Positions 5,784 to 35,756 of a DNA stretch of 64,000 nt are shown here, in pieces (positions within the stretch are counted from its first letter, which is position 1; each line of letters begins with the position of its first letter). Origin of the DNA: Thereva unica (taxonomy: Eukaryota; Arthropoda; Insecta; Diptera; Therevidae); assembly GCA_949987705.1 (NCBI GenBank), contig CATLJY010000061.1, positions 273,364 to 337,363 on the forward strand, in the 5' to 3' direction. The notes under the pieces were generated by a model that saw only the letters and a list, made by a program, of their open reading frames with translations, did no database searches and was not told where the DNA came from. Made by a program: the position numbers and the translations under genes.

Positions 5784-6443
5784 TATGTACATATCTATAT
5801 GTTTTGATTACATGTATGCTGATTACGAATCTGTTGTCAAAATTAGGAAATTCAAAGTCGCGGGTATATATGTTTCTATAAATATTAGTTCAGTCGTCAG
5901 AGCACAATTTGAATGCAGACCTCTAACTAAATGTTAACTCACGAAACTTTTTCTAAAAAAATAGTTTTTCGTGAGTACAATATCTTAAAAAAAAGTTTCG
6001 GGAAATTGGTTGTACGCTGGTCCTAAAAACAACCCCTTAAAAACAGAATATTCCGTTTTTGGATAATATCTCTGAAACGGAAAGTCCCATCCTAAAATAT
6101 TGTTTACAAAGTTTGTAGATCATGCGATTATCTACAAAGAATCACCGTTCATGAATTTGTTTACATGACCTAATATGCAATTTGTATCGGTCATCAGACC
6201 GAATAAATCCTCTGTTGGACTACGTGGCTAATGTTTTCAGGGTAATTCCTGGATGGTTTTGGAGAAAAAAATTGTTCTAGAGAGGGGGCTATCCCCGCTA
6301 TCCACTAAGGTACAGGGTGTTTACGAAAGAACAAAATATATTTTTTAAAATTTACTTAAAGTTGAATAACTCCTAGACTAATTATCGTGGAGCAACGTAA
6401 ATCGGTTCGTCTTTTAGTTATATATGTATTCCTTTATATGATA
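5784..6443. other. Non-coding interior of the 14.8-kb element
   Basis: AT-rich sequence up to the edge of the Helitron-like repeat. No frame above background and no recognisable structural RNA. Confidence 0.5.
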
Positions 6444-6630
6444 CTAGCATAAAACCCGCGTGCCTTGCAACGCCTTTAAAAACTGTTTATTATGTGCAAT
6501 GTTTTCCTTAAAAAAACCAACAAAAAAGTCAGCTGTTATTATCCCTAAAAAGGGTTTATTGTAATGCATTTTTTTAATAAATATGGTAAACAAATTGCTG
6601 CGAATATCACCTCTGCTCAACAAATCGCTT

Positions 6631-6988
6631 CTTAGTGGATGTTCACGCCATTATAGGGATGCACTGTCAAAATTTCAGCCCTATAGCTCCAGCGGTTTGG
6701 GTAAACCCCATTTCACTCCCTTAGGGGATGAATTTCGAAAAATCGCTTTTTAGTAGATGTCCACGCCATTATAGGTATGCACTGTCAAAATTCCAGCCCT
6801 ATAGCTCCAGCGGTTTGGGTAAACCCCATTTCACCCCCTTAGGGGATGAATTTCGAAAAATCGCTTCTTAGTGGATGTTCACGCCAATATAGGGATGCAC
6901 TGTCAAAATTTCAGCCCTATAGCTCCAGCGGTTTGGGTAAACCCCATTTCACCCTCTTAGGGGATGAATTTCGAAAAATCGCTTCTTA
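6631..6988. repeat. 118-bp minisatellite, left part
   Basis: About three units, recognisable by ATAGGGATGCACTGTCAAAA, then AGCCCTATAGCTCCAGCGG, then GAATTTCGAAAAATCGC. The array is cut by the LTR element at GTGG (6989-6992) and resumes at 14494. Confidence 0.9.
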
Positions 6989-6992
6989 GTGG

Positions 6993-8907
6993 TGTAACAG
7001 CATAATGGCGCGATCTAAATAGTGGGCGCCACTTATGCGAGGTGTTACCCCCTTAGCCACAAGCCCGGAAGAGCATGGCCAAGGAGCCAACACCATACAT
7101 AAGAATAAAAAGAAAATCCGGAACTCCTACGCCGGCCACACGGAGTTGTCTAGCTCGCCGGAGGGGTCGTGGGGTGTGTGGCCGGGGCTTACCGAGGCTG
7201 GTTCACCACTCACCTGTGACTATGTAACTTGAATTCCGCCATCATCCTTTTCCGATCATCGTCTGCGACGCGTCACACCCTGAAAAGGAAGTCATCCGTC
7301 CCAACCATTCCCAAGAAAAAATCTAACAACTTGAGTTCATTCTTAATAACTTAAAAATTGTTTTCTTTTATTTCAGACACATTAACAAAATACTAGAAAC
7401 ACCAATAGGTAATATCAATATTCAATGGGACACGATTAGAACAATGTCATCATAGCTCAATACATTTACAGTTTCAACATAAAAACATTCACAATTTCCC
7501 CGGTAGGGATACTTCCGTATGCTAACTGATTTGCAAAACGTCTCGTATTGGTACCAATTTCGCTTCGTTTCACTCACAAGTGGTATCAACAAATATCGTG
7601 TCCAATTATAATTACGAATAAGTTATTGGAAAACAACCAGAAAATTATTTTGCAAATAAAAAAAATTTAAGCCAATATTTTATAATAAAATTAGAACAAA
7701 TAAAAAGGAAATTTCGTTTAAATTATTACATAACAATTGTACGGGAACAGTGAAAGAACAACAATTTATAAAGTATTTGCTTAATACCGTTAAAATTATT
7801 ATTTGAGTAATAAAGTTAAAGTTAATAAATGAAGGTAAAAATTTGTGTTATTTTATTTATTTGTATTGTGTAAATCTATATATGTGTGTATAGCTATTTT
7901 AGATATCTTTTTTTTCTTTTGAAACCCAAATTTACTACCACCTTTCCGAATATATTGCAAAAGTAATATACAAAGTAAATGCCATACCGAAAAATCAATA
8001 CTTCTTTGTTCCTTCTTAAGTTGGCACGATACCTTTATCGCCCTTAGTCCAATCAAATTAGGCCGACTTCACCATCTATATCCGTACTTGAAAAGTGTTC
8101 ACCAGGCGCAACGCTTCATGACCAAATCTGCCACCAGGCAATTCATTAATAGTACACTGCCGTAAAACACCTCGATGACCACTAGTGAAATGAAGCCGCA
8201 ATGAATGGGCCTCTTCTTCCTTTCCTACACCAAGCCAATTGACCAAAAATGTGAATCAACACGGCAGCCAATCACTTCCGTGTTAATGTGACGAAATTCT
8301 TGTACTCTCTTGAGAAACGCCGATGATCTCAGGTTGACCAACAGACGTGGAATCCAAGGTACACCAGAATAGCACCACCCAAATATTCTCCTTCGAAATT
8401 TGCTGCTAGATGAGCAATGACCGCCTTGCTACACATACGATGAAAGCCTTTTTCGTCTGCACGCTGCAAATCGCCAGGAAATGAGAAGCAGGATTCCTTG
8501 TCGCTGGTTTCTTGACCCCTTCTGGTTGGTTTTTTTGGAAGACTTCTTGGTAGCTTCTTGATTACCATCAGGTTGGGAGCGAACACGGTAGCCGCCACTA
8601 TTTACTCCGTCATGCAAAAAAGCCAATTGCAAAAAAAAACCGATTGAAAAAAAACTGAATCTCCTGACTGATTGCAAAAATATTAGCAAATCATTCCAAA
8701 AAAACTCTACGAGCTGACTCACACGAACTGAACTCTCAAATTTTTCTTTTTTTCCTCACTAACCAAATTATTTTTTTGTTCTCGCCTACCTCTTTTTAAA
8801 TTTTTCCTTTTCCTCAAAAGTGATTTACAATAAATTTCCCATTGCCTACAAGGTGATTTCCCAACTAAATTTCCCCACCCAAATAACTAATAATTCCGAC
8901 CGTTACA
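6993..8907 (-). repeat. 3' LTR of the PAIP1-carrying element
   Basis: 1915 bp, near-identical to 12579-14493. Differences noticed by eye are near 7312, 7708, 8499 and 8766. It starts and ends with TG...CA as expected for an LTR. Confidence 0.92.
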
Positions 8908-8983
8908 TACCCTCGGGTCCACGAGGCCGACTCGCGAGGCAGTGAGGAGCCGAAAAAAACGGTCGCCGTAGGTCTAATATGTT

Positions 8984-9052
8984 TGGCGCCAATGTGGGAC
9001 TCGACTCACGACCTGAGAATAGGAGTCTCATGCTCTAGTGAGCTAGCCGGGC
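8984..9052 (-). pseudogene. tRNA-Lys-derived pseudogene with encoded CCA
   Basis: Read on the minus strand it begins GCCCGGCTAGCTCA and continues with TGAGA/TCTCA anticodon arms around CTCCTAT. It ends with a degenerate T arm and GGCGCCA. This matches animal tRNA-Lys(CTT), with a shortened D arm and the anticodon changed to CCT. The terminal CCA is normally added after transcription, so its presence in DNA suggests a reverse-transcribed mature tRNA. A run of seven T's follows downstream on the minus strand (near 8953-8959), which could stop Pol III. It may instead be the head of a SINE. Confidence 0.65.
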
Positions 9053-10841
9053 ATACGTGAACTAGTTGGTAATATACGAACCGAGTGAAAAGCTAACTAT
9101 AATTTAGGTTCATGCTTGCAACCGTAAGTTGCGATGGCCAGTCTGAAAAATCTCCCGGAGGAATATCTGAAGGTACAAATACCAGGCGGAAGACAATACC
9201 ACATTGTCCCCCTACTGACATCTATACGTCTCCAAACATTCTCACACAAACCCCGGGTGCTTTCGATCCATCGGCACAACCTCCAGCAATGCCATATTGC
9301 CTTCGAATCTTCCCGGTGAACCGACAGACACCCAGTTCGCCGAGAGACCTTCTCCAGACTGACCGAAAATAAAAAAATGAAGATGGAACCTTGAGGAAAT
9401 CAACGACGTATGTCTTTATGCGGTAAAATGAGTATAGGAATACGAAGTGATTGCAGCTACTCCAATTGGTCAGCATCTCGGTAAAAAAACAAAACCTAGA
9501 GGGATAAAAAAATTTTGATGCCCCCATTGCTCGTGGGATTGCGGAGTAAAAATACCATAGTAACGGTGAAACACCCCATTTTGAGTTCTTATTCAAAATC
9601 TTATTATACCATAAAACTTGTCATTCAATTACCGTAGTTGTTAAAATGTTGATACCTGCTGGTACTCCTACCTTTAATAGCTTATCCACTGAGATTTTTC
9701 TGGTATAAAGATCGGTAGGTACCATATTCCTAGAAGAATCATCAATTCCGATCTGAATATTATTATTGCAGTTCCAGAAAACAATACAAAGAGATTATGC
9801 TTCTCTTGTTGCCAAAAACTAACTGCCTAAAGTACGACTGGAAGCGCCATGACATTTGATAAAGGACGACTCATGTAGAACATAAAGTGGAATTGTGATA
9901 TCGTTACTAACATACCATATCGATACAGTAAGGCCGAACTTTTTCTATTACTTTTCTTAAATTTTCCATGCTGCGGCTACAATTCCGGCTAGCACTAGTC
10001 TAACTACCTATTGACTCCAACATTTTGAATTCCCAAATTCTGGAAGAAGATAACAGCGGGTGAAGATAATATTGATACAAATAAAAGGCCCAATAAAAGT
10101 TCGTGGCACTACACCAGGAAATTCATGGTGATCATACTGAGTGAGATTGTGCCGTAGATAGAGTATATCATGCTTTGCTTGTATATTAAAGCTCTCCTCC
10201 ACATTCGTGAAGGGTGCCTAGAATAGATGAGCCAGAGCTACCAAGAACAGTATGAGCCCCATTACCGAATATCAGTCACGCAAACACTTTCAATAATTTC
10301 GTATTTCGGATACGTTAATTATATTTAAATTGCGGGAAATACGAGAAAATCAGGAATCCAGAGGAAACTGACATCAAGATGAAGAAAGGTTGGCGGCTGC
10401 TGCGCAAACTCTAGTGGGCTTAGTGTTAAATACGTCATCCATCGCTGGATACTATCCACTTTATTTGTGTCCAATTTTTGCTTCGCAAGTTCCGAGTTGA
10501 GATGGAAATAAATTTTCCGGCTTTAAAAATAACCTTACAAACCAATAAAAAAATTTTCTCGACGACCACTGACAACTTAAGCAGAGTTCCGCACAACTGA
10601 TTTTGACTGATAAATATTGTAAAAGAATTTGGTTATGTTTAGACCACTAAAATCCTGATGATAAAATCGTTAATACTACAAATTCGTTGCATTTTAATGT
10701 GTAAAATTATATTTCCTTATTAAACTTTACCGAATAACCGTCTTAAAAACACATATATGTGTAGATCTGTTATATTTAATTTTTCTCTAAATTAACGTAT
10801 TAAAAAAGGATGGCGCCAACAAAACGATAATGAAAAATGCA
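9053..10841. other. Non-coding 3' part of the LTR element
   Basis: About 1.8 kb between the PAIP1-like stop codon and the tRNA-Lys copy. The open frames here are short or antisense and match nothing I recognise. Codon patterns do not resemble gag or pol. Confidence 0.5.
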
Positions 10842-11393
10842 TTAGTTGACTTTTTTTCCGGGCGCCTTAACTGATCGTCGAAGGGTATGGGTACTTACGG
10901 CCGACAAGAACAACTCGACCCCTCGTAACCTACGACCATTCAGTCCGTCCTGCCTAAGTAGCCTCTGCAGCTCGGCCAACAGTAATCTAAATAGACTTCT
11001 AAAGGCACTACCCTTTTCGGGATTCATTGAATCCAGCAGCCCATATAATTTTGCTCCCGTAACACACAACGCCGGTTCCGCCACGCAACGATAGAAGATA
11101 CCCTCCATTGCCTGACTTAACACCCAGGGATTATTCTTAAAATCGAAAAATATAGTTAAGATTCTCGACGCAATGGTATCGAACGATCCCGGAATATCTG
11201 TTAACCTATTCATCACCTCGAAAAGATAACTCAATGCTGTGACCTCGTCCAGTGAGTGTGACATGACAACCCGTTTAGCCTTAGGAACGAATTCCTTCGC
11301 AAACGGAGATAGAGTCGAACGACAATGTGGCCTACGCAGCTTCTTGTGCGCAAGGGGCAGGCCATAATACGTGCGTCCGCAAGTATCAACCAT
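10842..11393 (-). CDS. PAIP1-like protein: PAM2 motif plus MIF4G-type domain
   Basis: 183 codons from ATG 11393; the frame is open a little further upstream with no other ATG. Residues 28-37 read LSPFAKEFVP, a good PAM2 motif, the peptide that docks on the MLLE domain of poly(A)-binding protein. Residues about 50-148 resemble the start of the PAIP1 MIF4G domain: a leucine-rich helix, then NRLTDIPGSFD, a GIFYRCVAEP segment, TGAKLYGLLD and FRSLFRLLLAEL. PAIP1 links poly(A)-binding protein to eIF4A and stimulates translation. The frame ends before a full MIF4G domain (usually about 200 residues), so it is truncated or a minimal form. It is in sense orientation in an LTR element lacking gag and pol, about 1.2 kb after the primer-binding site. 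I infer capture of a host gene. Whether it is expressed is unknown. Confidence 0.72.
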   Translation of the reverse strand: MVDTCGRTYYGLPLAHKKLRRPHCRSTLSPFAKEFVPKAKRVVMSHSLDEVTALSYLFEVMNRLTDIPGSFDTIASRILTIFFDFKNNPWVLSQAMEGIFYRCVAEPALCVTGAKLYGLLDSMNPEKGSAFRSLFRLLLAELQRLLRQDGLNGRRLRGVELFLSAVSTHTLRRSVKAPGKKVN

Positions 11394-12558
11394 GACTACC
11401 GAGGACAGTAGCAACCACCACGCCCCGAAGAATCGAAGAGGAAAAAAAATTTTTTGTGAAAATAGATTAAAATAGAACAGCCAATAAAATCAACAGCAAT
11501 TAGTATAACAACAAATGCCTAATAACAAATCAAATAAATATTGAAATTATGTGAGTATACCTCAAAAAAACACAACCAACGCTGATTAGTGAATAGCGAT
11601 AAAACAGCCAAAGTGTATTAGCGCCTATATATGGTAGTGTAGGTGAGGTGATTATGTGCTTTAATTCAGTATAAGCGAGGAATGGTTGAGACGGATAACA
11701 ATTCCCCTCAGGACTCCCGCATGTCGATGGCCTCGATGCCAGCTGGTGAAAACTATGAAGCATAGTCATCACCAGGTGTCATCCAGGTCGCCGACCCAGC
11801 TTCAGGTCTGCCCCGAACGAAGGACGGAAACAAAAAGTCAAAGGGCATAGTCACGAAAGGGAAACTTCTTCAGAAATAAAAAAAATTTGGGGAATCCGCT
11901 GTTCAATCACAACTGAGCTACCTTTCGGAAAATCAATCAGTTGGGATGAACCAGACGGAAAAAACTCAGGACGTAAACAAAAAATTAGAATTTAAAAAGC
12001 TGAATGGACCTTCCGAAGGAACAAGGGGCGCAGTGGCAGGCGTTAACACGCCTGTTACCAAAGACGGTTAAGCCCTTGTCCCAACTTCAACTTCCACCAG
12101 GAAAATTAAAAGATGATCCTGTTCAAGGACCGACGCAGTGGCAGGCGGTATCACGCCTGATACCAGAGTCGCCGACCCTAGAAACAGGACAGGGATGAAC
12201 CCCTACTACACCTGCACGCATAGCCAAGCGACCACTCGCTTGTTAGCAAGCCGTGCAGGTCAGCATGGCTCGAAGCTACTCCAAAAAGAAGAAGTTACCG
12301 CGTAAGTGAACGGACAGGCCTAAAAGCGAAGACAAATAAAAATTCACATAGAATTTGGACAAAGATGCTGAAAAAAATTCGACAAGACAGACAAGGACTA
12401 AGGCTTCGCGGTACTACCTTAGCCCACAGCGAGCGCTGGGTAAAAGTGGTGAACCATAAACAAAAAAATCAAATGTTGTCCGTGAAGGCACAAGTGGTAC
12501 TAAACCAAAAAAAAATTTAATCTCAGGGTCCGTGTAGGACAGTCAACGGGCTTTAAAA
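11394..12558 (-). promoter_or_regulatory. Structured 5' leader of the LTR element
   Basis: This stretch lies between primer-binding site and ORF and holds several strong hairpins. One pairs 12211-12218 with 12252-12259 and encloses CAAGCGA/TCGCTTG (12225-12231 with 12236-12242). Two copies of CAGGCG-N6-CGCCTG lie at 12037-12054 and 12142-12159. Another stem pairs TGGTGA with TCACCA (11744-11774). In retroelements this region usually carries packaging and dimerisation signals; that role here is inference. Confidence 0.5.
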
Positions 12559-12574
12559 GCCACGTTGGGCGCCA
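12559..12574 (-). promoter_or_regulatory. Primer-binding site, tRNA-Lys
   Basis: Minus-strand TGGCGCCCAACGTGG is complementary to the 3' end of animal tRNA-Lys (CCACGTTGGGCGCCA). It lies four bases inside the 5' LTR boundary and fixes the element's orientation. Confidence 0.85.
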
Positions 12575-12578
12575 TTTA

Positions 12579-14493
12579 TGTAACAGCATAATGGCGCGAT
12601 CTAAATAGTGGGCGCCACTTATGCGAGGTGTTACCCCCTTAGCCACAAGCCCGGAAGAGCATGGCCAAGGAGCCAACACCATACATAAGAATAAAAAGAA
12701 AATCCGGAACTCCTACGCCGGCCACACGGAGTTGTCTAGCTCGCCGGAGGGGTCGTGGGGTGTGTGGCCGGGGCTTACCGAGGCTGGTTCACCACTCACC
12801 TGTGACTATGTAACTTGAATTCCGCCATCATCCTTTTCCGATCATCGTCTGCGACGCGTCACACCCTGAAAAGGAAGTCATCCGTCCCAACCATTCCCAA
12901 GGAAAAATCTAACAACTTGAGTTCATTCTTAATAACTTAAAAATTGTTTTCTTTTATTTCAGACACATTAACAAAATACTAGAAACACCAATAGGTAATA
13001 TCAATATTCAATGGGACACGATTAGAACAATGTCATCATAGCTCAATACATTTACAGTTTCAACATAAAAACATTCACAATTTCCCCGGTAGGGATACTT
13101 CCGTATGCTAACTGATTTGCAAAACGTCTCGTATTGGTACCAATTTCGCTTCGTTTCACTCACAAGTGGTATCAACAAATATCGTGTCCAATTATAATTA
13201 CGAATAAGTTATTGGAAAACAACCAGAAAATTATTTTGCAAATAAAAAAAATTTAAGCCAATATTTTATAATAAAATTAGAACAAATGAAAAGGAAATTT
13301 CGTTTAAATTATTACATAACAATTGTACGGGAACAGTGAAAGAACAACAATTTATAAAGTATTTGCTTAATACCGTTAAAATTATTATTTGAGTAATAAA
13401 GTTAAAGTTAATAAATGAAGGTAAAAATTTGTGTTATTTTATTTATTTGTATTGTGTAAATCTATATATGTGTGTATAGCTATTTTAGATATCTTTTTTT
13501 TCTTTTGAAACCCAAATTTACTACCACCTTTCCGAATATATTGCAAAAGTAATATACAAAGTAAATGCCATACCGAAAAATCAATACTTCTTTGTTCCTT
13601 CTTAAGTTGGCACGATACCTTTATCGCCCTTAGTCCAATCAAATTAGGCCGACTTCACCATCTATATCCGTACTTGAAAAGTGTTCACCAGGCGCAACGC
13701 TTCATGACCAAATCTGCCACCAGGCAATTCATTAATAGTACACTGCCGTAAAACACCTCGATGACCACTAGTGAAATGAAGCCGCAATGAATGGGCCTCT
13801 TCTTCCTTTCCTACACCAAGCCAATTGACCAAAAATGTGAATCAACACGGCAGCCAATCACTTCCGTGTTAATGTGACGAAATTCTTGTACTCTCTTGAG
13901 AAACGCCGATGATCTCAGGTTGACCAACAGACGTGGAATCCAAGGTACACCAGAATAGCACCACCCAAATATTCTCCTTCGAAATTTGCTGCTAGATGAG
14001 CAATGACCGCCTTGCTACACATACGATGAAAGCCTTTTTCGTCTGCACGCTGCAAATCGCCAGGAAATGAGAAGCAGGATTCTTTGTCGCTGGTTTCTTG
14101 ACCCCTTCTGGTTGGTTTTTTTGGAAGACTTCTTGGTAGCTTCTTGATTACCATCAGGTTGGGAGCGAACACGGTAGCCGCCACTATTTACTCCGTCATG
14201 CAAAAAAGCCAATTGCAAAAAAAAACCGATTGAAAAAAAACTGAATCTCCTGACTGATTGCAAAAATATTAGCAAATCATTCCAAAAAAACTCTACGAGC
14301 TGACTCACACGAACTGAACTCTCAAATTTTTCTTTTTTTCCTCACTAACTAAATTATTTTTTTGTTCTCGCCTACCTCTTTTTAAATTTTTCCTTTTCCT
14401 CAAAAGTGATTTACAATAAATTTCCCATTGCCTACAAGGTGATTTCCCAACTAAATTTCCCCACCCAAATAACTAATAATTCCGACCGTTACA
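12579..14493 (-). repeat. 5' LTR of the PAIP1-carrying element
   Basis: 1915 bp, bounded by TG...CA, near-identical to 6993-8907. It should hold the promoter. Long T- and A-rich tracts are present, but no TATA box could be placed with confidence. Confidence 0.92.
13915..14154 (-). CDS. Possible small LTR-encoded ORF, unknown
   Basis: 79 codons from ATG 14154, in the sense direction of the element and intact in both LTR copies (the other is at 8329-8568). It starts with a Lys/Arg-rich stretch and ends with hydrophobic residues near its C-terminus. It resembles no family I know. An overlapping frame has no ATG. Because the LTRs are nearly identical by descent, conservation between them is not evidence of selection. 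Confidence 0.2.
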   Translation of the reverse strand: MVIKKLPRSLPKKPTRRGQETSDKESCFSFPGDLQRADEKGFHRMCSKAVIAHLAANFEGEYLGGAILVYLGFHVCWST

Positions 14494-17036
14494 GTGGATG
14501 TTCACGCCATTATAGGGATGCACTGTCTAAATTTCAGCCCTATAGCTCCAGCGGTTTGGGTAAACCCCATTTCACCCCCTTAGGGGATGAATTTCGAAAA
14601 ATCGCTTCTTAGTGGATGTTCACGCCATTATATTGATGCACTGTCAAAATTTCAGCGCTATAGCTCCAACGGTTTGGATAAACCCCATTTCACCCCCTTA
14701 GGGGATGAATTTTGAAAAATCGCTTTATAGTGGATGTCCACTCCATTATAGGGATGCACTGTCCAAATTTCAGCCCTATAGCTTTAGCAGTTTGTAAAAA
14801 CCCTATACACCCTTAGGGGATGAATTTCGAAAAATCGCTCTTTAGTGAATGTTCACGTCGTTATAGGGATGCACTGTTAAAATTTCAACCCTATAGCTCC
14901 AGCGGTTTGGATAAACCCTATTTCACCCCCTTAAGGGATGAATTTCGAAAAATCGCTTTATAGTGGATATCCAATCCATTATAGGGATGCACTGTCCAAA
15001 TTTCAGCCCTATAGCTTTAGCGGTTTGTAAAAACCCTATTTCACACCCTTAGGAGATGAATTTCGAAAAATCGCTCTTTAGTGGATGTAAACGTCATTAT
15101 AGGGATGCACTGTCAAAATTTCAGCCCTATAGCTTTAGCTGTTTGTAAAAACCCCATTTCACACCCTTAGGGGGTGAATTTCGAAAAATCGCTCTTTAGT
15201 GGATGTGCACGTCATTATAGGGATGCACTGTTAAAATTTCAACCCTATAGCTCAAGCGGTTTGGATAAACCCTATTTCACCCCCTTAAGGGATGAATTTC
15301 GAAAAATCGCTTTATAGTGGATGTCCACTCCATTATAGGGATGCACTGTCCAAATTTCAGCCCTATAGCTTTAGCAGTTTGTAAAAACCCTATACACCCT
15401 TAGGGGATGAATTTCGAAAAATCGCTCTTTAGTGAATGTTCACGTCGTTATAGGGATGCACTGTTAAAATTTCAACCCTATAGCTCCAGCGGTTTGGATA
15501 AACCCTATTTCACCCCCTTAAGGGATGAATTTCGAAAAATCGCTTTATAGTGGATATCCAATCCATTATAGGGATGCACTGTCCAAATTTCAGCCCTATA
15601 GCTTTAGCGGTTTGTAAAAACCCCATTTCACCCCCTTAGGGGATGAATTTCGAAAAATCGCTTTATAGTGGATGTCCACTCCATTATAGGGATGCAGTGT
15701 CCAATTTTCAGCCCTATAGCTTTAGCGGTTTGTAAAAACCCCATTTCACACCCTTAGGGGATGAATTTCGAAAAATCGCTCTTTAGTGGATGTCCACGTC
15801 ATTAAAGGGATCCACTGTTAAAATTTCAACCCTATAGCTCCAGCGGTTTGGATAAACCCTATTTCACCCCCTTAAGGGATGAATTTCGAAAAATCGCTTT
15901 ATAGTGGATGTCCACTCCATTATAGGGATGCACTCTCCAATTTTCAGCCCTATAGCTTTAGTGGTTTGTAAAAACCCCATTTCACACCCTTAGGGGATGA
16001 ATTTTGAAAAATCGCTCTTTAGTGGATGTCCACGTCATTAAAGGGATCCACTGTTAAAATTTCAACCCTATAGCTCCAGCGGTTTGGATAAACCCCATTT
16101 CACCCCCTTAAGGGATGAATTTCGAAAAATCGCTTTATAGTGGATGTCCACTCCATTATAGGGATGCACTGTCCAATTTTCAGCCCTATAGCTTTAGCGG
16201 TTTGTAAAAACCCCATTTCACACCCTTAGGGGATGAATTTCGAAAAATCGCTCTTTAGTGGATGTCCACGTCATTAAAGGGATCCACTGTTAAAATTTCA
16301 ACCCTATAGCTCGAGCGGTTTGGATAAACCCCATTTCACCCCCTTAAGGGATGAATTTCGAAAAATCGCTTTATAGTGGACGTCCACTCCATTATAGGGA
16401 TGCACTGTCCAATTTTCAGCCCTATAGCTTTAGCGGTTTGTAAAAACCCCATTTCACACCCTTAGGGGATGAATTTCGAAAAATCGCTCTTTAGTGGATG
16501 TCCACGTCATTAAAGGGATCCACTGTTGAAATTTCAGCCCTATAGCTCCAGCGGTTTGGATATACCCCATTTCACCCCCTTAAGGGATGAATTTCGAAAA
16601 ATCGCTTTATAGTGGATGTCCACGCCATTATAGGGATGCACTGTCAAAATTTCAGCCCTATAACTTTAGCCGTTTGGATAAAAGCCATTTCAACCCCTTA
16701 GGGGATGAATTTCGAAAAATCGCTTTTTAGTGGATGTAAACGTCATTATATGGATGCACTGTCAAAATTTCAGCCCTATAGCTCCAGCGGTTTGGGTAAA
16801 CCCCATTTCACCCCCTTAGGGGATGAATTTCGAAAAATCGCTTCTTAGCGGATGTCCACGCCATTATAGGGATGCACTGTCAAAATTTCAGCCCTATAGC
16901 CCCAACGGTTTGGATAAACCCCATTTCACCCCCTTAGGGGATGAATTTCGAAAAATCGCTTTATAGTGGATGTCCACGCCATTATAGGGATGCACTGTCA
17001 AAATTTCAGCCCTTTAGCTCCAGCGGTTTAGGTTGT
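14494..17036. repeat. 118-bp minisatellite, right part, with higher-order repeats
   Basis: About 21 units. A block from about 14731 repeats at about 15318 with an offset of 587 bp (five units). Between about 15660 and 16560 two unit types alternate: one with CACTCCATTATAGGGATGC, the other with CACGTCATTAAAGGGATCC. It belongs to the surrounding Helitron-like element. Confidence 0.9.
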
Positions 17037-18113: not shown

Positions 18114-19250
18114 TTAATCACATGTAGGGTCGGAAGCTAGCGTTTTCATTTTATCTATCTCTTCAGCTTGCATGAGCTCATTACTGGGTAAAACACATAT
18201 CTTAGTGATAGCACGTTGGATTTCTGCCGTACTGGTCTTAATTGTTACTACTCTTACGGACTTATCTTTACCGGGATGTGTTTTTATTATGCGGCCTAAT
18301 TTCCATCTGAGAGGAGGAATCCGTTCATCTTTAAGTATGACCAAATCTCCTACCTTAACATTACGTTCACTTTGGCGCCATCTTGGGCGTTGTTGGAGAC
18401 GAGCTAAATACTCAGTTGTCCATCGGTTCCAAAAGTGTTGTCGAAGTCGTTGTATGTATCGCCATCTATCGAGGCCATGAATATTATGGTCGAGTAGGGC
18501 CTCTTCAGGCGGAGGCAACAGAGGCTTACCTATGAGGAAATGGGCTGGAGTTAAAATTCCAAGATCATGAATATCATCGGACAGAGGACAGAGGGGCCGA
18601 GAATTTAAACACGCCTCAATCTGGATGGTGAGAGTGATAAGTTCTTCATACACAAAACTCGCATTTTTCGCAACACGTTTGAAATGAAATTTGAGAGACT
18701 TTACTTCAGCCTCCGAAAGACCACCAAAATGAGGGGAATACGGCGGAATGAAACTCCACTCGACACCGTTTACGGAAAAGGTCTGGGCGGCTTCGGTCTC
18801 AGCCTGCTGTATAGCAGCATTGAGTTCCGCATCTAGTTTGTTTTTTGCTCCCACAAAATTTGTACCATTATCTGAATATACTCTTTGGCATAATCCGCGC
18901 CGAGAAATGAACCTCCTGAACGCTGTGAGAAACGAATTGGTGCTAAGATCACCGACGACTTCGAGATGCACGGCTTTGGAACATAAACAGACAAAGATGA
19001 CAATATACCCTTAATATGATCGACTACCTCGGATTCGACTCGCTCGGATGTCAAGAGGGCCAGTATAATCAAGTCCTACAAAGGTGAACGGGTTACTAAT
19101 CGTAACTCTTTCCGGAGGTAAATCGGCCATGATTTGTGTCTGATTAGTTTTTCGCAACCGGAAGCACACGACACAATTATGGAAACACCTCTTTATTAAA
19201 TTTTTAGCACGTAAAATCCAATAATTTTGTCGCAAAAATGCCTGCACTAA
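18114..19250 (-). pseudogene. BEL/Pao integrase region
   Basis: The upstream frame (19011-19247) has the N-terminal zinc-finger half (CVVCFRL) and the start of the catalytic core with GLDYTGPLD. The next frame (18114-18971) has YSDNGTNF, then YSPHFGGLSEAEVKSLK and a C-terminal stretch that reads RWKLGRI. These are the three acidic positions of a retroviral-type DDE integrase in BEL/Pao style. The two frames are out of register, so the gene is broken. A stop at 18114 and a 285-bp 3' region with a polypurine tract follow. Confidence 0.85.
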
Positions 19251-21078
19251 TTGAGGTGTCCCCCGTGTAGTGTTTCTTCGTGTGCATGCTCAATGACGAG
19301 CTGAGTAAAATGACCGCTGCTGGGCAACAAAATAGGGCGGCGCTCATTAAAGGGTTAGGTGGAGCTGCTGAGCCGTCTTCCTACTCGAAATAGATGATCC
19401 GAATCTAGCCAAGGATTCAAGCTTAGCAATTTGCTGCGTACCGAGATAGGCCGTTTTTCTGATAATGACTTGAATTCATCATTGAAATAAAGTGACTGAA
19501 TGGTCTAACACCAAAATTTGCGACTCTGATCAATTTCCGTGTAAGACAGCGATCTCAAAGTTTGGGAGGTTGTGGTCGATTTCTCTTTAACCTTGCGGAG
19601 AAAAAGCGGAAGCAATACGCAGTCACTCGGAGGAGCCGCTTGAGCTTTGAAAAACGGGCCAAGACTGAGTATAAATATGACGTATCAGGGTGACAGGCAG
19701 GCAATTCCTGTGCCTCAAGTTCCTCTCGTACGTGACGAGGTGACGTAAGCCATTGATCTTCATTTTGCTTTAACCAAGAGGGGCCTTGTAGCCATAGCGT
19801 TTGGTGGATGAGTTCTTATCCGGAGATACCGCGACTACTACAGTCCGCAGGATTTTGAGAAGAAGGGACATGTCGCCATTTGGGGGCGCCAATATTAGTA
19901 GTTATGGTGCAGAGGCGGTTACAAATGAATGTCTTGATTGGGGGTTTTCGCAGCCACGACAAAACGATAGTGGAATCGGACCAGGTGCGTAACTGGGACT
20001 CATCAAAGGGGATGCTTTTTCGCATAGCTTTAAGTAGTTCCGACAAGAGGACGGCGCCACACAGTTCAAGACGGGGAAGGGTTATAGTTTTCACGGGACT
20101 AACTTTGGTTTTGCTACTGAGCAGAAAGATATTTATCCCGGATTTATGCTCCACACGAATGTAGACGACCGCAGTGTACGCCCGCTCGGATGCGTCACAG
20201 AAGCCATGTATCTGGAACGTGAGTACTAACCCATCGAGGAATAACTATCTGTTCAATTGCAGGTAGAGTGTTGAGGTAAGCGGTCCAGAAAGTTTCGAGC
20301 TCGTGGGGTAGAGGTTCATCCCATAAGAGGCCATGTTGCCACAAGACTTGGATAAATATCTTGGCGCGGATTATAACTGGAGCTAGCCAGCCCAGAGGGT
20401 CATAGAGGCTAGCTATGTATGCCAAGACCTTTCGCTTGGTAAAGGGGGGTTGGGGTTTATCCATACGAATCTTAAAACTGAAATGGAGTGGAATTCCAGA
20501 AAAGGCCAAGAGTTTTGATCACGTCCGTTGTCATCCTAACCACATGAGAATTTGGGGTTCGATCAACCAACCACATTTTTTTAGAGCAGATCGGGGCAAT
20601 TAGCGGACCATTTGTAAAGGTGACAATGACCAGCTTTTAGGATTGATATGGTTTCTTCCTGTAGAGACAAGGCGTCATTCAAAGTATCCGCGCCTGAGTA
20701 AATATCATCAACGTAGGTTTCGAATCTTAAAATTTCCGCGGAATTTGGGTATTTGTCTCCCTCATCTTGAGCCAACTGATGAAGGGTGCGAATCGCCAAG
20801 TAGGGTGCACTCGCTGTACCGAAAGTTACTGTGTGGAGTCGTATATCTTCAATGGGTGAATTACAGTCGTTTCGCCAAACGATACGCTGAAATTCATGAT
20901 CTGGGCATTCAACAAGGATCTGTCGGTACATCGTTTCTATGTCCGCACAGAATACGAAACGCTTCAACCTCCACTTTAGGAGAAGCTGCGAAATGTCTTG
21001 CTGCAGGCGAGGTACAGTCAGCAATCTGTCATTCAACGAGTGGCCATTAGAAGTCTCAAGTCTTGCATGAGGCATCAA
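19251..21078 (-). pseudogene. BEL/Pao reverse transcriptase and RNase H region
   Basis: The RT part (20581-21078) has CADIETMYRQI and the active-site YVDD within FETYVDDIYSGAD. The segment 20195-20509 carries the BEL-typical SLYDPLGWLAPVIIRAK. The segment 19816-20154 carries LPRLELCGAVLL and WSDSTIVLSWL, typical of the BEL RNase H region. Frames change between these parts and several stops lie near 19300-19800. The enzyme is therefore dead, although each domain is easy to recognise. Confidence 0.85.
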
Positions 21079-22489
21079 AGACGACTCTACACTTTGTAGT
21101 GCTACTGTCCGTTTTGATTACCGCATGGTGGGGCAGATAACAATAAGAGGAAGTAGAAGCCTCCTTTGATGGGGGTGGGACCCTCTAAGCATGGTTAAGG
21201 GTAAGGTATTCTTCTATGCATTCCTTATATGTCTTATACAATTCGGGGTTTTGGCTGAATTTCTTTTCTAAGTGATGAACACGTTGGATGGCGATTTGGC
21301 GGGACTCTCCGAAACGAGTTTCGTGTTTGGATAACGGAATCGGAATGAAAGGCAACTTTACCACATATCGCCCTTCCGGGGTGCGTGAATGAGTTTGTTT
21401 ATATATTTCTTCGCATAGACTATCCTCTGGACTAAACGGGTTCGGTTGCGGGCTTTCCTCTATCTCCCAAAACCTATTCAATTGATTTTGTAAGTCAACA
21501 TGACTATATGCACTGATAATACAGGGGGCTTCTTGTAGGGTTTCATCTTTCACTTGAGGAACTTCACCAAAAATTATCCAACCCAATCGCGTACGTAGGG
21601 CAACGGGGGCTCCCTGACCACCTGTCTTTAATTCAGGTAAGATGATCTGGGCATAAACACCTGCACCTAAGACTATGTCGATAGAGCTGGGTGCAACAAA
21701 TCGGGGGTCGGCCAGAGCGAGACCTTCTATATGGGGCCAATCATAACATTCGATTTGATTAGAGGGTAGCATACTAGTTAAGCTATTAAGGATTATTGCA
21801 TCCAAGTTAATTACGAAGCTCGTATCTTGCAGAGATTTCAACTGAAGTTGTGTAATATACTTTGCTGAAGAGCTCTCCATATTATTCAATCCGCGGATAT
21901 GGACAGGCCATGGATGCTTTTTCGCACGCCATCTTTGGACGACATGGGGAGTAACATAGCAACCTTGGCTGCCTGGATCTATTAACGCGCGAAATGTTAA
22001 ATATTCCCCGGTGTCGTCGCGTAACGACACTAAGGCCGTAGCTAGCAAGTCGGATCCTAGTTGAGCCACAAAATTAGCATGTATCGTCGGGGGGCGTGGA
22101 GGAGAAGGCGTTCGCGCTGGTGGCACTAATTGTTTCGGGTTGCTCGGGGGACTCTGAGTCTTCTCTAAATGTAGCAGGGTGTGGTGTCGCGATCCACATT
22201 TAAAACAAACACCTTTGTTAGAGCATTGCTTGAACCCGTGACTTGTAGCCAAACAGTGGAAACAGGGCTTCTTTCCTTTGACTATAGACACTCGGGCCGA
22301 AGGATGCATTGCTTTAAACCTGGGGCACGTCTTTAGGGTATGATCTAAACTGCAACACGGGCAGTTGTAACCGTAGGCCGTGTAAAAGGCCTGAAGAAAT
22401 GGTGCACTGTTCGAAGATCCTTTTTCTTTCCTAAGTTCCCCGTTGCCAAGAAGATTTCGCCTTGGAGTTATAATTTCTCGAGAAGACTC
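21079..22489 (-). pseudogene. BEL/Pao zinc-knuckle and aspartic-protease region
   Basis: The frame 21185-22309 starts with two CCHC-like knuckles (CFHCLATSHGFKQC and CFKCGSRHHTLLH). A protease-type core follows with ALIDPGSQGCYV, then the linker to RT. In-frame coding continues upstream to 22489 (ESSREI), where a transposon splits it from gag. A TAG at about 21185 separates it from the RT start. This order is standard for BEL/Pao polyproteins. Confidence 0.82.
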
Positions 22490-22492
22490 TAA

Positions 22493-23949
22493 TGCATAAT
22501 CTCCAATGGGAAAACCAACTACGAACCAACCACGTACCAGTAGGCTGAATTAGCTGACAAAATGTGTTCATAGACATTTCTATCAATGTAGATGTGAAAT
22601 GTCAGTTTTATTATTATTTTTATTTGATATTTGGCTAGTTTTTTAGTTTTTGGTTTAAAACATCCCAAAGATGCTCTATGCAAGGGCTCCAAGGCTGCGC
22701 CATCTACAGGTTTACAGGAAGAGAAGGACTAAATGAGTTTGCAGGATGTTATAGCGCGAATTGTATCGTGTGTTTTGATTAAATGCTATTGAATATCCAT
22801 TGTGTTTGCATTATATTAATTTTTGAGGACCTTAAGACCATTTACTATTTATATTACAGCCTTAGATGTAGCAATTGTATCAGAAATACTGAGGAATGTT
22901 CTTGATTCCTCAATAAACTATGGGGTTTATCCAGAGCCTTGAATTGAGAGCGTAATGCTTGGATAGATATAAAATTACGTCTCTTCCGCAGTGTTTGTGT
23001 AAGTTTTATGGTCCATAATACCTTGAATTATGAGGAAATTACCAACCCCGTCCGTGTTCATACGTTTCAATTAAATGCCATTTTGGCGTTTTCTGTTGTG
23101 ATATTTTTTGGCGGGATATTGCAATTACACTCAGGGCCGGTTTCATCGACCCGGATAATAATACATAAGACCGAATATATTCATTTCACCAACCTGAATA
23201 TATCTCAGTCGGATATAAATACGACTCGGTTGCGTTGGTCGTAAAAATATCCGCTGGACGTAGCTCATTTAGTATGCTATGTTCGAAATTTCGAAAATTA
23301 TGTTTGACGTTAAAAACAAACAGTTTCAATTTATTTTTGAAAATAATTAAATGACATTAGAACCATTGAATAAATCAGTTTTGAGTTGAGTTGAGTTTTT
23401 GAAATTATGGTTGACGTTAAAAACACTCACGGTGATATGTTTGGATTTAATTTTTTTTACAATACTTCATATTTGACGCAACGAGCTTTTCCAATTTTAC
23501 AGAAAATAAAATCAAATGCCAACTTCCATACCTGATATCGAAAAACAATTAACAACTGACACTATGTTCGAATTCTATGTCCGAAAATAACATAGACTTT
23601 CGAATATGGAGGCATCATTTATCCCGGTCGATGAAACACACCAAATATCCGACAGAAAATCCAAGATATTTATTATCCGTGGATATATCCGTGCCCATGA
23701 AACCGGGCCTCAACGTCATTTATGACTTGATTTTTGACATTTTTTGGTACAAAATTGTTTAGAGCCGCTGCAAGAAACCCGCTGAATTTCATCTGGCAAC
23801 TCAAATGGTTTAACTAACACATACGAAAAGTTAACCCATGTCGACCAAAACACGAGCGAGACGGATAATTCAATTTACAATGGGAAGGAATAGGAAGCAG
23901 CATTTTGGTTGGTTGGTTCGTGGTTAGTTTTGCCATTGGAGATTAGGCA
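22493..23949. mobile_element. TIR element splitting BEL gag, TSD TAA
   Basis: The left end reads TGCATAATCTCCAATGGGAA and the right end inverts to TGCCTAATCTCCAATGGCAA, with about 40 bp of similar TIR. TAA lies at both borders (22490-22492, 23950-23952). Removing the insert restores an uninterrupted polyprotein reading across the junction, which confirms the borders. A 576-bp M2 MITE is nested at 23134-23709. It is non-coding. A Harbinger-type assignment rests on the 3-bp TSD. Confidence 0.82.
23134..23709. mobile_element. 576-bp MITE, second M2 copy, TSD TCA
   Basis: A close copy of 2205-2778 in the same orientation, with TIRs GGGCCGGTTTCAT and GGCCCGGTTTCAT. TCA lies on both sides (23131-23133, 23710-23712), complementary to the TGA used by the first copy, so the same target triplet was chosen twice. 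Confidence 0.9.
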
Positions 23950-23952
23950 TAA

Positions 23953-24939
23953 AGCTCTTACTCGGCTATTAATGAAATCAGTAAGTGTGTCTAAAGAGGG
24001 AAAGACAGTGACAGGACCTAGAGACTGTTCCCATAATTTACGCGTCTCTACCGGCAAACGCTGGACGACCAGGGTCACAATGATTGGTGTCCATTCATTA
24101 ACTTCCACCTTAAGACCTCTCAACGACGCTAGACATTCACTTATATTCTCTATCAGCCGACGAATTTGAGACGCCGATTCGGAGTTTACTGGGGTTTGGC
24201 TAAGCAAAATTTGTACCTGGCGGGTGATAAGTAAACGAGAGTTTTCAAATCTATCACAAAGCATCTTCCATGCCTCTCGATAATTTTCATCAGTAAAACT
24301 CAGATGTTTGAGCAAACTAGCGGCCTCACCTTCCAAACTGCTCTTCAAATAGTGCAACTTCTGCACCGCTGGCAAAGAGCGATGATTGTGAATAAGAAAT
24401 TCAAACATATCATGAAAGGAAACCCAATCTTTGTAATCCCCGCTAAACTTGGGAATAGATATACGCGGGAGTTTTACATCTAATGTCGGGGTTTCGAAGT
24501 GCTCTGCATTTGAGCTACCATCTTTAGAATCAGCCGTAGAACCTGACGACTGTCGGTTGTTCTGATTTCCTTTATCAATGCTGTTTAACTTGTCTAATAA
24601 GGCACCGCGTCGCTCAAAGTGTGACTCCTCGTGCTTGCTATAATGATCTTCAATCAAATATGCCTGCTCTCGCTTATCCTTTTCATTGGCCATGGCGACA
24701 ATGTTCGTATTATTAGTCTGATATTGAACCCACCACGCGTCTAAAGCGGAAGCGGATAAACGACCACGCATATACCCAACAGTACATCTAAGCTTTGGAG
24801 TTTTGTCATAATTTGTCCAAAACTTTTTGATTTGTTCTTGCAAGGCGATCTGCTTGCTGATTAGGTTTAAAATCAATGGTGGATCTGGAATGGACTCTTC
24901 CGACATCTTACGATCAACAAAGGATAATACCCTCTCCAA
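23953..24939 (-). pseudogene. BEL/Pao gag region
   Basis: The frame begins at 24939 and encodes a gag of the DUF1759 type: LPRISIPKFSGDYKDWVSFHD, a LHYLKSSLEGEA segment and a FENSRLLITRQV helix region, ending FINSRVRAL at the insertion. The open frame runs on to 23875 inside the transposon, giving a false C-terminus. A coiled or helical N-terminal part (ISKQIALQEQIKKFW) is visible. In an intact element this would be the capsid precursor. Confidence 0.85.
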
Positions 24940-26052
24940 CGGAAACTTAGTCGAGATTTGGCTTGAATGGGACTCTTCGTAACTAATATTGTAACTATTA
25001 AACTAAAATGGGGTTTTGAGGACTATTTATGAAAATCAGAAAATAATTGCACTGGATCTTTTAACCTTCATACCACAGTATCAAGGGCGATTATAAATCG
25101 ATCTCCGCTTATCAAAACTATTACCAGGGGGCATCAACAAAACTTCAAAAGAAAACCGTTATCAACTATTCAAAAAACTAAACTCGCATACCATCGACGC
25201 ACGAAATTTCGAAATATATTAATTCAATTTTCTCTTACCACCTCAAATTCCCCTTTAATATATGGAAACTGTAATTGAGCTGTAATAAAATTTAAATAGT
25301 TCCGTTTATCCACCAACAAGCAACAACTTAGAAATCTTCACCATTAAAACAAATGCACCGGTAATTTATGAGAAATAAAATCAAAATCAGCTTGTTCAGA
25401 AAAAAAAAACCAAAAATCTTTATTATCAACAAAAGAAAAATGCTCGAAATACACGAGAACCGTAATACCAACTTCAATAAATCACCCCCAAGAAAAAAAA
25501 ACAAAACTTTAAAATTTTTGGAACGTTACTTACTCAAAGAAAGCAGCAAAAAAACTCAAAACTATGTTTTACTACATATGTACATCAAATGATTTTTAAG
25601 GACCGTAAGATGAACTTGAATTATTCACGTTGTCACCAACAAAGTACAAAGAATTTGAATTTTGGCATTCAAAAATACAACCAAAATTATAACCACCATG
25701 CAAAGAAAAAAACGGTATCATCCCAGCAAACATCATCTCGAAGTTTAGAGTGCTTCGAAAAATTCTCGAACAGGAAGAGAGCGAGAAAGAAATACTTTGG
25801 AAATAAAATTATGGTAATATTTCGTTTTTACGAAAAAAAAAAAAAATCGAAATTTTAAAAGAAGAGAACCGCGTACAATACTAAAAGTAAAATTCGCCTT
25901 TAAAAGGTTTCGAGAATTTTTCGTTTTGGCGAAAGAAACTCGAATCGCTTTTGCGATTCGACCTAGCGGTCCTTTTCGTTCTTTTTTACTTCGATTTCAA
26001 TTCGAAAACGGCTTCGAGATCGCAATTGTAGTTCATTTTAACGATTAGCTTT
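24940..26052 (-). other. BEL/Pao 5' untranslated leader
   Basis: An AT-rich stretch between gag and the Harbinger insertion. A perfect hairpin CGAATCGC-TTTT-GCGATTCG lies at 25941-25960. The plus-strand frames here are low-complexity Lys/Asn-rich and look accidental. Confidence 0.45.
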
Positions 26053-32576: not shown

Positions 32577-33128
32577 GAATTTGATGTTGTCCGACAAAAA
32601 TTGCACTTTAAGTTTTCCACTTAGGATGCCAAAGGCAAGCAAGGTATGGGTAATTTTCTCCTGTCAGATATCGGCAAGAGATCAAGCACTTTGAGCCTGT
32701 CCAAGTAGTGCGGTAGAGTTTGGAAATTATTTGGTAGTTATGGGGGTTATGTAGATGTCTCAGGATGAAAAAAATAAATCTCTTTTGACCGGATTTGATC
32801 CTCCTACTGCTCACTTGGAATATAGAATCCCAGATAGGATACGCATATTCCAGGATAGGACGGACTAAAGAACAGAAAAGTGTTTTTGTGACCCATACAT
32901 TACCGAATTCTTTGGCTCTCTTGATGAAACCAAGGAGTTTACTGGCTGTAGCAATTATGTTGTCGTAGTGCATGTATTTCATTTTTCGGAGACTCCCTAT
33001 TTTTTCGTGACAGATTGACTGTACTATAGGTGGCGCCTAGATCTACGATATGATCAACTTGATTCAACATTATGCCGTTGAGATAATATTTCTGCATTTG
33101 GGTTTTTTCCTCGAGAGAAGGTAATAGC
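32577..33128 (-). pseudogene. LINE B, RT C-terminal fragment
   Basis: The minus strand encodes KYYLNGIMLNQVDHIVDLG, KLLGFIKRAKEFGNVWVTKT, LFCSLVRPILEYAYPIWDS and KVQFLSDNIKF. Each aligns with the LINE B copy at 58.5-59.0 kb. It ends at the 9-bp duplication GGTAATAGC (33120-33128), where a transposon separates it from 42309-42612. Frames are broken. Confidence 0.85.
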
Positions 33129-34398
33129 AGAGATAACATAATACTCCGTATAAAGATGCGACAGCTAGAACAAAAAACCCGAACGCTTTTCGCATCGGCA
33201 GACCTCTGAGATTGCCTCCACCTTAGCAACATGCAACATATTCGAGTTTCTAGCTACACAAGGAGGCGAACGTGGTCATGGTCCGCAGCACAAGACATGT
33301 GGTGAGTTTGTCGATAAGGAAGCTAGAGTTTTAGAGGGGCAAGGAAAGGAACTGACAACAGAATGTTTCTCGCAGCATTGTCATCTTTCAAACATTTACG
33401 TCTAGCGCTACATTGAAGGATTTTCCTGATGCTTTGTATTTTAACTATTTCTTAGAACATTCAGTGTATTTTTTTAATGACTGTCTGAGATCCACTATCA
33501 ATTTCACTTGATTTCAAATTCTTGGTGAGAGGGTTTGCGATATTTTTAAAATAGGTGATTAGTTGAGGTTTTGGTTACTTTTTTTTATTTTCTGGTATTT
33601 CGGTATTGGCTAACTCGATTGATTTTAGAAAGGAATTTAGGTAATTATTCTTTGTTTTATTTTATCCCAAATCTGGGACAATGGCTTTTTATAAATGCTT
33701 GCAAAGTTAACTCCAAGCCCACAATAAAAAATCGTACGTCTGCTCAAAACAATTCGATCGTAATTGTTTTGGTAAAAATAAATTAAAAATAGGTTCAAGA
33801 CCTTCATAGGCTTCATGTCAAGTCAATTTTCAGGAAAAAGGTATGACAGAAGGAATTCATTCTCGGACTTGCAATTACAGGATTTATCCATTTTAGAGTC
33901 AGTCCCCTTATCAACAATTAAATATTGAGCTCGTAAATATATACTGCAAACAATGGAAGATGAAAAAAAATTTCTTTATACATATTTGTTCTTCTGGTGG
34001 AAACTAAAAAAAACAAGTTTTCAAATTTTTGGACTTCCATTTTTTTAGTTATAAATTTTCAAAAAGTCGAAAATCTTTTAAATCTTTAAATTGATCTAGT
34101 TCAAAAACTATTTGACATAGAAAGCTGAAAGTAGCACCAATTCCTTCTGCTTCAGTAAGGCTTTAATACGTGATACACAATATAGTATTATTAGTAAGAA
34201 TAAAACTATAGTATTACTAGTAAGAACGAAACTTTTGTTTTTGGAATATCTCAAAATAATATTTTTTCAAATTTTTGAAAAAATTATATTTTGTACATAC
34301 AATCTTAACGTACATATAATGCCAAAATTTAGGATGGGACGACATTGGGATCATATAGAAATAAATGTTTTTAGGTACTCAATGAACGCAATATAAAA

Positions 34399-35747
34399 CT
34401 AGTTGGGATGTGGGTTCGACCCTTTCGGTCCACACGATCAACTTCCCAGTATGATGGATGTTGAATATTATGATTGGATATTTTAATAATAAATGAACAA
34501 TAGGCAATATAGAATATATGCATAATACCGAGAATTTGTCACAATTGTTTATCAATATTTTCGTTAAAATGTCAAACTAAATTTGCGCACTTACAAGATT
34601 AGGATGACGAAAATGTATATAAAATTGATGTATTAATGTTTTTCGGCACCTCAATGAAGCCGATATAGTTTTTAGTTCGCGCGGTATCGTGCAGGTACAA
34701 AAATCACTTAAGTCGCGCAAGTGTCGCGCCCAAAATCTGTCGGTCGATGAAGTTTGCCCCGTCTCAAAAGGCATAACACTTTGACGCAGACAAATTTCAT
34801 TGACCCTGATGGTTGCGACAAGTGTAATTCCGGGAAAAATCTCCAAGAATGTGGCGATTGAGCCCGCGCAAACGAAGTCCCGTTACGAGTCACGCTTTGT
34901 CATTGACTTATGTAACATTCGTGGACTTCATGCGAATTTCTCTTTTGTTGAGTGCCACCTACTGACTTTTAAACCCCCAATTTTCGCACTTAGTGAAACC
35001 CAAATATCACCGGATAATGACTTAAGTCATTACCAGATATCGGGGTACACTTTAGTGCACAACCTCTCCCCCCATAGGGGTATTGCCATTTATGTTAGGG
35101 ACGACGTGGCTTATTATAAAATATTTTCCAGCGCGACTTCAGATTTTAATTATCTTTGGATTAAAATCATTTTCCAAAGCCACGTCATATTCTTCTGCTT
35201 CCTATACAGAAGTCCTAACATAAGTAACGAAGCCTCCACCTTATCTTTTGATACTATTTCCGAACAAATCTCGGGATTCTTGTCGTCCAATCCTGAGTGT
35301 GAAATCATCGTTGCGGGTGATTTCAATGTTCACAATGTAAACTGGCTGACTTACTCAAATGGCACCAGTGTTTCTGGCAAGGACGTCGAGCTCTTTGCAG
35401 ACACCAATAATTTGCATCAAATTGTTGATCATCCCACGAGAGTCCCTGATGTTGCTGATCAAGGATCCTATCTCCTTGATCTTTTTCTAACTTCTCATCC
35501 AGCGCGTTATTCCGTCACAGTTGATTCACCTCTCGGCAATTCGGACCACTGCCTAGTTAGCGCTAGCTTCCCATTCAAATTTCCCACCCCTCCCAAACCA
35601 GTTAGAAGAACTGTATGGCATTATGGGAAGGCCAATTGGTTGGGGCTTATTAATTTTTTCCAATCTACTGACTGGAATCTGTGTTTCCGAAACAAAAACG
35701 TCAACTCTGCCGCTATCCGTATTTCTAGGATCATACAGGCAGGAATG
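34399..35747 (+). pseudogene. Truncated duplicate: retroposon head plus LINE A 5' third
   Basis: First unit of the tandem duplication. Retroposon sequence runs from CTAGTTGGG (34399) to AAGTC (34714). LINE A follows with ATG 34800 and an open frame through the endonuclease domain, including GDFN and SDH. The frame is cut at the duplication junction and stops at 35754. By eye it is identical to 37507-38855. Confidence 0.88.
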
Positions 35748-35756
35748 GTAATTTAA

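Follow-up and report, generated by a model that had tools for sequence, protein, structure and literature searches.

A PAIP1-derived reading frame with signs of purifying selection in LTR retrotransposons of Thereva unica lacking detected gag and pol

Why would a retrotransposon carry a gene that resembles a translation factor in place of its own machinery? The question is raised by a long terminal repeat (LTR) element in the genome of the therevid fly Thereva unica. It lies in a stretch of 64,000 nucleotides (contig CATLJY010000061.1 of assembly GCA_949987705.1, positions 273,364 to 337,363), hereafter called the window, where it occupies positions 6993–14493 with its sense strand on the minus strand. 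An earlier reading made from the sequence alone had proposed that its main open reading frame (ORF) is PAIP1-like. The comparisons reported here indicate that a mobile element in which neither gag nor pol was detected carries a reading frame of host origin that has been under selection, and it is highly probable that the captured gene encodes a protein binding the poly(A)-binding protein (PABP).

A PAIP1-like gene between two LTRs

The features that define the element and its gene are the following.

10842–11393, minus strand: PAIP1-like ORF, 183 amino acids (aa) plus stop; the frame is open as far as 11489
11277–11318, minus strand: PAM2 motif, residues 26–39, around TLSPFAKEFVPK; Pfam PF07145 at 17.7 bits, below the cut-off
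10899–11237, minus strand: first part of a MIF4G domain, about residues 53–165, C-terminally truncated (from the Paip1 PDB alignment and longer relatives)
6993–8907, minus strand: 3' LTR, 1,915 bp, 99.79% identical to 12579–14493
12579–14493, minus strand: 5' LTR, 1,915 bp, pairing with 6993–8907
6989–6992: left target-site duplication GTGG, 4 bp (from the sequence and the LTR ends), within a satellite array
14494–14497: right target-site duplication GTGG, 4 bp (from the sequence)

The two LTRs begin with TG, end with CA and are nearly identical, as expected of an LTR retrotransposon; they enclose an interior of 3,671 bp, and the insertion site is an array of 118-bp satellite units. Both the near-identical LTR pair and the recent mobility that the sequence-only reading had deduced from it were thus borne out. 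A clear polypurine tract before the 3' LTR was not visible by eye in the window copy. Gag and pol likewise went undetected in this copy: of the eight ORFs of at least 90 aa listed for it, two are second-LTR copies of two others, and the six distinct ones matched no Pfam profile for gag, protease, reverse transcriptase (RT), RNase H or integrase. Their only Pfam matches at E ≤ 10 were PAM2 and, in another frame, a weak glycosyltransferase.

The frame at 10842–11489 comprises 215 open codons, and its ATG gives the protein of 183 aa. It had been described as the only sizeable sense frame; it is indeed the longest of the interior, but sense frames of 132 and 100 aa accompany it. Length alone is merely suggestive, since 4 of 2,000 simulated interiors (first-order model) reached at least 215 codons in any of the six frames.

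The domain assignment is carried by the relatives of the window protein. In the latter, PAM2 scored 17.7 bits (E 0.0027), short of the Pfam cut-off of 20, and Pfam MIF4G gave no match at E ≤ 10; the best PDB matches were the Paip1 MIF4G chains 3rk6 and 6yxj (E 0.036–0.037), aligned over residues 53–141. Three relatives from the same genome, L080, L090 and L092, matched MIF4G with 34.7, 43.4 and 44.1 bits (cut-off 30.8), and L080 and L090 matched PAM2 with 21.4 bits. With relatives above the cut-off for each of the two profiles, the assignment is secure, and the profile search that the earlier reading had named as its check came out in its favour. The motif LSP[FL]AKEFVP is kept in nearly all aligned rows, L083 being an exception. 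PAIP1 is the best MIF4G match of the longer family members, as against the partial, sub-threshold match of the window protein, and Paip1 is also the best fold match of an alignment-based structure model of a longer relative. Profiles, PDB matches and predicted fold therefore agree with the proposed PAIP1 order, PAM2 and then the first part of MIF4G. Alignment with the longer relatives showed that proteins of the window subfamily have no C-terminal part of MIF4G; the window copy represents a branch shortened at its C-terminus within a family in which most of the domain survives in the longer members.

A single-sequence AlphaFold model of the window protein (pLDDT 51.7) was not relied on. Foldseek with this model returned nothing at E ≤ 0.001 (the DAP5 MIF4G domain had the top probability, 0.92 at rank 16, among the 50 matches listed), and it was set aside for the alignment-based model. 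Searches with the window protein found no relative among 5.8 billion proteins or among viral contigs, and among phages only seven chance matches, all at E ≥ 1.

Parent gene, family and selection

The family alignment, searched against the same 5.8 billion proteins, gave eight matches at E ≤ 1. The top three (P0001–P0003, E 3e-17 to 4e-14) are PAIP1-like proteins with the PAM2 sequence LSPFAKEFVPR, MIF4G and an acidic C-terminus, and P0001 has an LRRPH motif near its N-terminus. In the fly genome, the locus L091 (C2:155516700–155517926) encodes 409 aa in a single frame with the same layout, C-terminus included; its Pfam scores are 33.7 bits for MIF4G, above the cut-off, and 18.4 bits for PAM2, below it. 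No long repeat pair flanks this ORF within about 3 kb per side, a distance over which resemblance at the DNA level to the window element and the divergent element L084 is confined to the ORF itself. Of 228 candidate matches to P0001, 90 were scored, and just two of these extend to the PAIP1 C-terminus, namely L091 and a copy of it truncated at the 5' end. L091 is thus, judging from these comparisons, the likely host parent gene. The parent had been expected to contain introns, and what was found is a single-exon gene; the protein matches in the genome revealed no intron-containing PAIP1, although a gene matched exon by exon could escape detection. Two candidates for such a gene were rejected. 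C1:146635420 (L096:2406–2918) is 5'-truncated and 97% identical to L091 in protein sequence, and L088/L089, which presumably resemble NOM1, gave only chance matches to PAIP1.

The direction of capture was most naturally from host to element, since the host gene keeps a C-terminus where the element proteins stop: five aligned element proteins terminate in LEAVLKLIS or LEAVLRLIS, at a point where the host has IETVLKLQKTNWGR. The acidic region that follows MIF4G (PAM1) is present in L091 and missing in all 18 aligned element proteins, which are therefore PAIP1-derived rather than PAIP1. In a tree of 22 rows, the element proteins and L091 group together at 100/100 against P0001–P0003, with L091 on an unsettled branch at the base of this group. 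A single capture event is likely, though not proven.

The family is large and was recently active. A genome search tolerating up to one mismatch located the junction of LTR and primer-binding site (PBS) 861 times (reversed control, 0), and the ORF has at least 150 protein matches. Of the DNA copies, 40 were scored and are mostly 97–100% identical, so the other copies carrying the frame that had been anticipated do exist. Subfamily proteins are as little as 41–62% identical to the window protein. Of 20 fetched loci of 10 kb each, 16 contain an LTR pair, with 97.5–99.9% identity (window, 99.8%), several of these alignments spanning part of the LTR only; the LTR of L062 is shorter (836 bp). Even the divergent L084 has an LTR pair of 99.6% identity, and from such near-identical pairs it follows that divergent subfamilies were recently mobile side by side. 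Target-site duplications of 4 bp were seen by eye in all 11 copies with both outer ends readable (21 examined). At C4:58686964–58702641, four element ORFs of 303 aa are spaced by exactly 5,059 bp, probably a tandem array of the element.

Was the frame kept intact by selection, or merely by the youth of the copies? All 40 close copies keep it open as far as codon 181, three of them with a 1-base indel near the end, so the prospect that it might be broken in all other copies did not materialise. Among the matches listed, 136 of 150 have no in-frame stop inside the matched part and 14 have one. The ratio of nonsynonymous to synonymous rates (dN/dS), a comparison likewise suggested beforehand, is well below 1: 0.20–0.59 among 13 family members (76 of 78 pairs; two saturated) and 0.26–0.37 between family and host gene at dS 0.76–1.8. 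Freeing omega over fixing it at 1 improved the log-likelihood of the elements by 99.8 (MG) and 77.8 (MGK), and that of the 40 copies by 15.2 (MG) and 8.6 (MGK); these models were fitted by fast searches, from which we cite likelihoods only and no omega estimates, and the 40-copy values are rough, a model with one extra parameter having scored below a simpler one. By region, with pN/pS pooled over pairs of 14 sequences, PAM2 is the most constrained (0.15), followed by LRRPH (0.29), the N-terminus (0.37), the first part of MIF4G (0.48), its second part (0.70) and the linker (0.74). This pattern points to PABP binding rather than full PAIP1 activity.

A second captured fragment offers a built-in comparison within the same copies. 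Three of four fetched group-C elements (L053–L055) also carry a USP7 fragment from the N-terminus that takes in roughly half of the MATH domain (for example L055:6203–6943), recognised by a PDB match to USP7 at E 2.3e-14, with Pfam MATH_2 at just 16.3 bits. Thus the PAIP1-like gene is the sole cargo of the window copy as far as is visible, but not of all its relatives. The probable host USP7 gene lies at C1:227298272, with an open frame of 1,180 aa. In six copies whose PAIP1 match is stop-free (C2:77828415, C1:68438489, C2:39411749, C2:39417275, C2:70330142 and C1:57932579), the USP7 piece is interrupted by a stop and continues in another frame. A TAA stop is apparently common to five of the six and therefore probably represents one inherited event, after which the copies multiplied. 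Two USP7 pieces (C5:92657702 and C2:41978577) have a frame open across nearly the entire query. This difference is consistent with selection that acts on the PAIP1 frame and hardly on the USP7 fragment.

Possible roles of the element protein

The sequence-only reading had suggested that the protein could raise translation of its own RNA, protect that RNA or bring it into RNP granules. We favour a reading in which the element would be mobilised in trans by Gag and Pol of another element, while its protein would contact PABP through PAM2. The contact is inferred because PAM2 is a known PABP contact and the most conserved part of the protein. Acting near its site of synthesis, the protein might hold or protect the element's own poly(A) RNA, for example by keeping PAM2-bearing deadenylation factors off PABP, and more element RNA would survive for packaging. 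The MIF4G part would probably serve as a second contact without full translation-stimulating activity, since constraint is relaxed in its C-terminal half, which the window subfamily has lost. As a whole, the combination of a PAIP1-derived family gene under purifying selection, mobilisation in trans and RNA protection via PABP appears probable to us; the protective role for the element's own RNA, considered by itself, is a tentative proposal. Such protection or retention is favoured over a boost to translation, a PABP decoy and a shield against surveillance.

A working PAIP1, binding PABP and, via MIF4G, eIF4A, could boost translation of element RNA behind a leader rich in upstream ATGs. Such leaders are the rule (8–14 upstream ATGs in 19 of 20, 35 in L085), and in the longer relatives, with Paip1 as their top fold match, PAM2 is retained together with most of MIF4G. 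However, the aligned element proteins have no PAIP1 C-terminal region, the second MIF4G part is weakly constrained and missing from the window subfamily, and an element without gag and pol has no other obvious product to translate. That first the PAIP1 C-terminus and then the second MIF4G part disappeared thus argues against a full translation stimulator, and we regard this role as rather unlikely. The relaxed C-terminal half of MIF4G next to a strongly constrained PAM2 would suit a PAIP2-like decoy, which would occupy PABP and lower host translation, or loosen PABP from the tail and shift RNA from ribosomes to packaging; this is an unlikely account, as it leaves the constraint on the first MIF4G part and the open frame unexplained.

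Retention of PAM2 would also agree with a shield against nonsense-mediated decay or small-RNA silencing, in which PABP is fixed near the stop codon or the contacts of PAIP1 and eIF4G are mimicked. A long 3' part behind a short ORF typically attracts PABP-sensitive decay. Sequence by itself does not separate this idea from the other PABP readings, and we give it only a small chance. Finally, the ORF might be a functionless passenger, captured by accident and intact merely because the copies are young. Most of the 40 scored copies are indeed nearly identical, and accidental capture is known in LTR elements (Bs1 of maize, PMC13317346). Yet dN/dS near 1 would then be expected on deep branches, whereas ratios of about 0.2–0.6 persist at dS up to well over 1; most listed matches are stop-free, and in six such copies a stop interrupts the co-captured USP7 piece. 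A mere passenger is very improbable.

Several observations weigh against the protective reading that we prefer. The window protein is sub-threshold in Pfam for PAM2 and MIF4G alike, and the divergent copy L083 lacks conserved residues of PAM2. The absence of gag and pol was formally assessed in the window copy only. The nine upstream ATGs ahead of the ORF would complicate its translation. Selection acting only during spread would be expected to make omega on internal branches differ from that on terminal ones; in the 40-copy tree the values are 0.57 and 0.56, that is, without difference. The pairs pooled for the regional pN/pS are related. Lastly, yeast Pbp1, which binds Pab1, promotes Ty1 movement independently of its Pab1-binding part, so a benefit from PABP binding is not to be assumed (PMC6218562).

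How does the family compare with known systems? LTR elements that capture genes and LTR elements that are non-autonomous have both been described before. The element proteins share with PAIP1 the order of PAM2 and MIF4G, the N-terminal LRRPH motif (also in P0001 and L091) and the best PDB match by sequence and fold; they differ in the missing acidic C-terminus and, in the window subfamily, the missing C-terminal part of MIF4G. With large retrotransposon derivatives (LARDs) and other non-autonomous LTR elements the family has in common two LTRs, a PBS, target-site duplications, a conserved leader, no gag or pol found and a presumed mobilisation in trans. A LARD is non-coding, whereas the interior here holds a protein gene under purifying selection; typical LARD LTRs are also longer than the 1.9 kb of this element. 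Bs1 of maize and similar elements likewise enclose captured host coding sequence (PMC13317346), but in the present family a single captured regulatory gene is the main one and persists in divergent subfamilies that were recently active. Pbp1/Ataxin-2 resembles the element protein as a PABP-interacting protein affecting LTR retrotransposon RNA, the difference being that it is a host protein acting without Pab1 binding and not a gene within the element (PMC6218562). The literature searched, at the level of entries and abstract openings and with few subscription papers and no bioRxiv preprints, revealed no LTR element carrying a gene for PAIP1, PAM2 or MIF4G.

The usual view takes non-autonomous LTR elements for parasites that act as RNA only, and captured host genes for passengers that soon disappear. 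In a large family, a constrained, host-derived PABP-binding gene persisting across deep divergence suggests that such elements may manage poly(A) RNA with a protein of their own. PAM2 kept while MIF4G is reshaped or discarded is the pattern expected of a gene manipulating host PABP. We lean towards the view that a gag- and pol-less LTR lineage built a biology of its own on one stolen PABP-binding PAIP1 derivative and diversified into concurrently active subfamilies that keep PAM2 and reshape or discard MIF4G. Whether a transposon gains from controlling PABP thereby becomes a testable question.

Leader, 3' parts and neighbouring sequences

Outside the ORF, four further parts of the element were recognised.

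11394–12578, minus strand: leader of about 1.18 kb with nine upstream ATGs, conserved between divergent subfamilies
12563–12574, minus strand: PBS TGGCGCCCAACG, 4 nt beyond the 5' LTR end
12000–12189, minus strand: paired CAGGCG...CGCCTG hairpins in the leader, folded in 20 copies
8984–9052, minus strand: tRNA-like sequence with a terminal CCA, some 75 nt ahead of the 3' LTR

The leader measures about 1.1–1.3 kb in all but one of 20 copies, the exception being L085 with 2.1 kb. Over its first kilobase (60-column windows) it is mostly 70–98% identical between subfamilies whose ORFs approach saturation at silent sites. The PBS sequence, which we take to match tRNA-Lys, occurs once in each of 21 sequences, 3–4 nt past the LTR end (about 10 bases further in L061). 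Its core is fixed and the following two bases vary (window 12560–12574 and 20 other loci), perhaps as traces of different tRNA primers. In 20 copies the twin hairpins have 56 consensus pairs, four of them with two-sided changes, and 30 of 1,120 cells are unpaired; they are a possible packaging or dimerisation signal. The tRNA-like sequence, presumably resembling tRNA-Lys, scored 24.6 bits with the Rfam tRNA model (cut-off 29; E 0.059) over 8994–9045. Of 21 sequences examined, 17 show its pattern, and it has partial complementarity to the PBS of the same element. Several relatives share 85–97% identity over the final 0.5 kb. The conserved leader and 3' parts look like signals required by a helper element.

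An autonomous partner was not found around the first 100 of the 861 LTR–PBS junctions. A listed ORF match lies 0.3–4 kb downstream of 30 of these 100; the other 70, the ORF lists being incomplete, may represent unlisted ORFs, deletions or the partner. Copia-like pol frames seen by eye in L086 (about 6338–8914), beside or within its 3' LTR, are probably a separate insertion.

Elsewhere in the window, the remains of a Bel/Pao-like LTR element, with gag, protease, RT and integrase-like frames recognised by eye, lie at 18114–25002 (minus strand). A 3,099-bp direct repeat with 100% identity and LINE-like sequence at 32649–38855 is either a recent duplication or an assembly artefact. A satellite array of about 45 copies of an 83-bp unit occupies 60243–63999.
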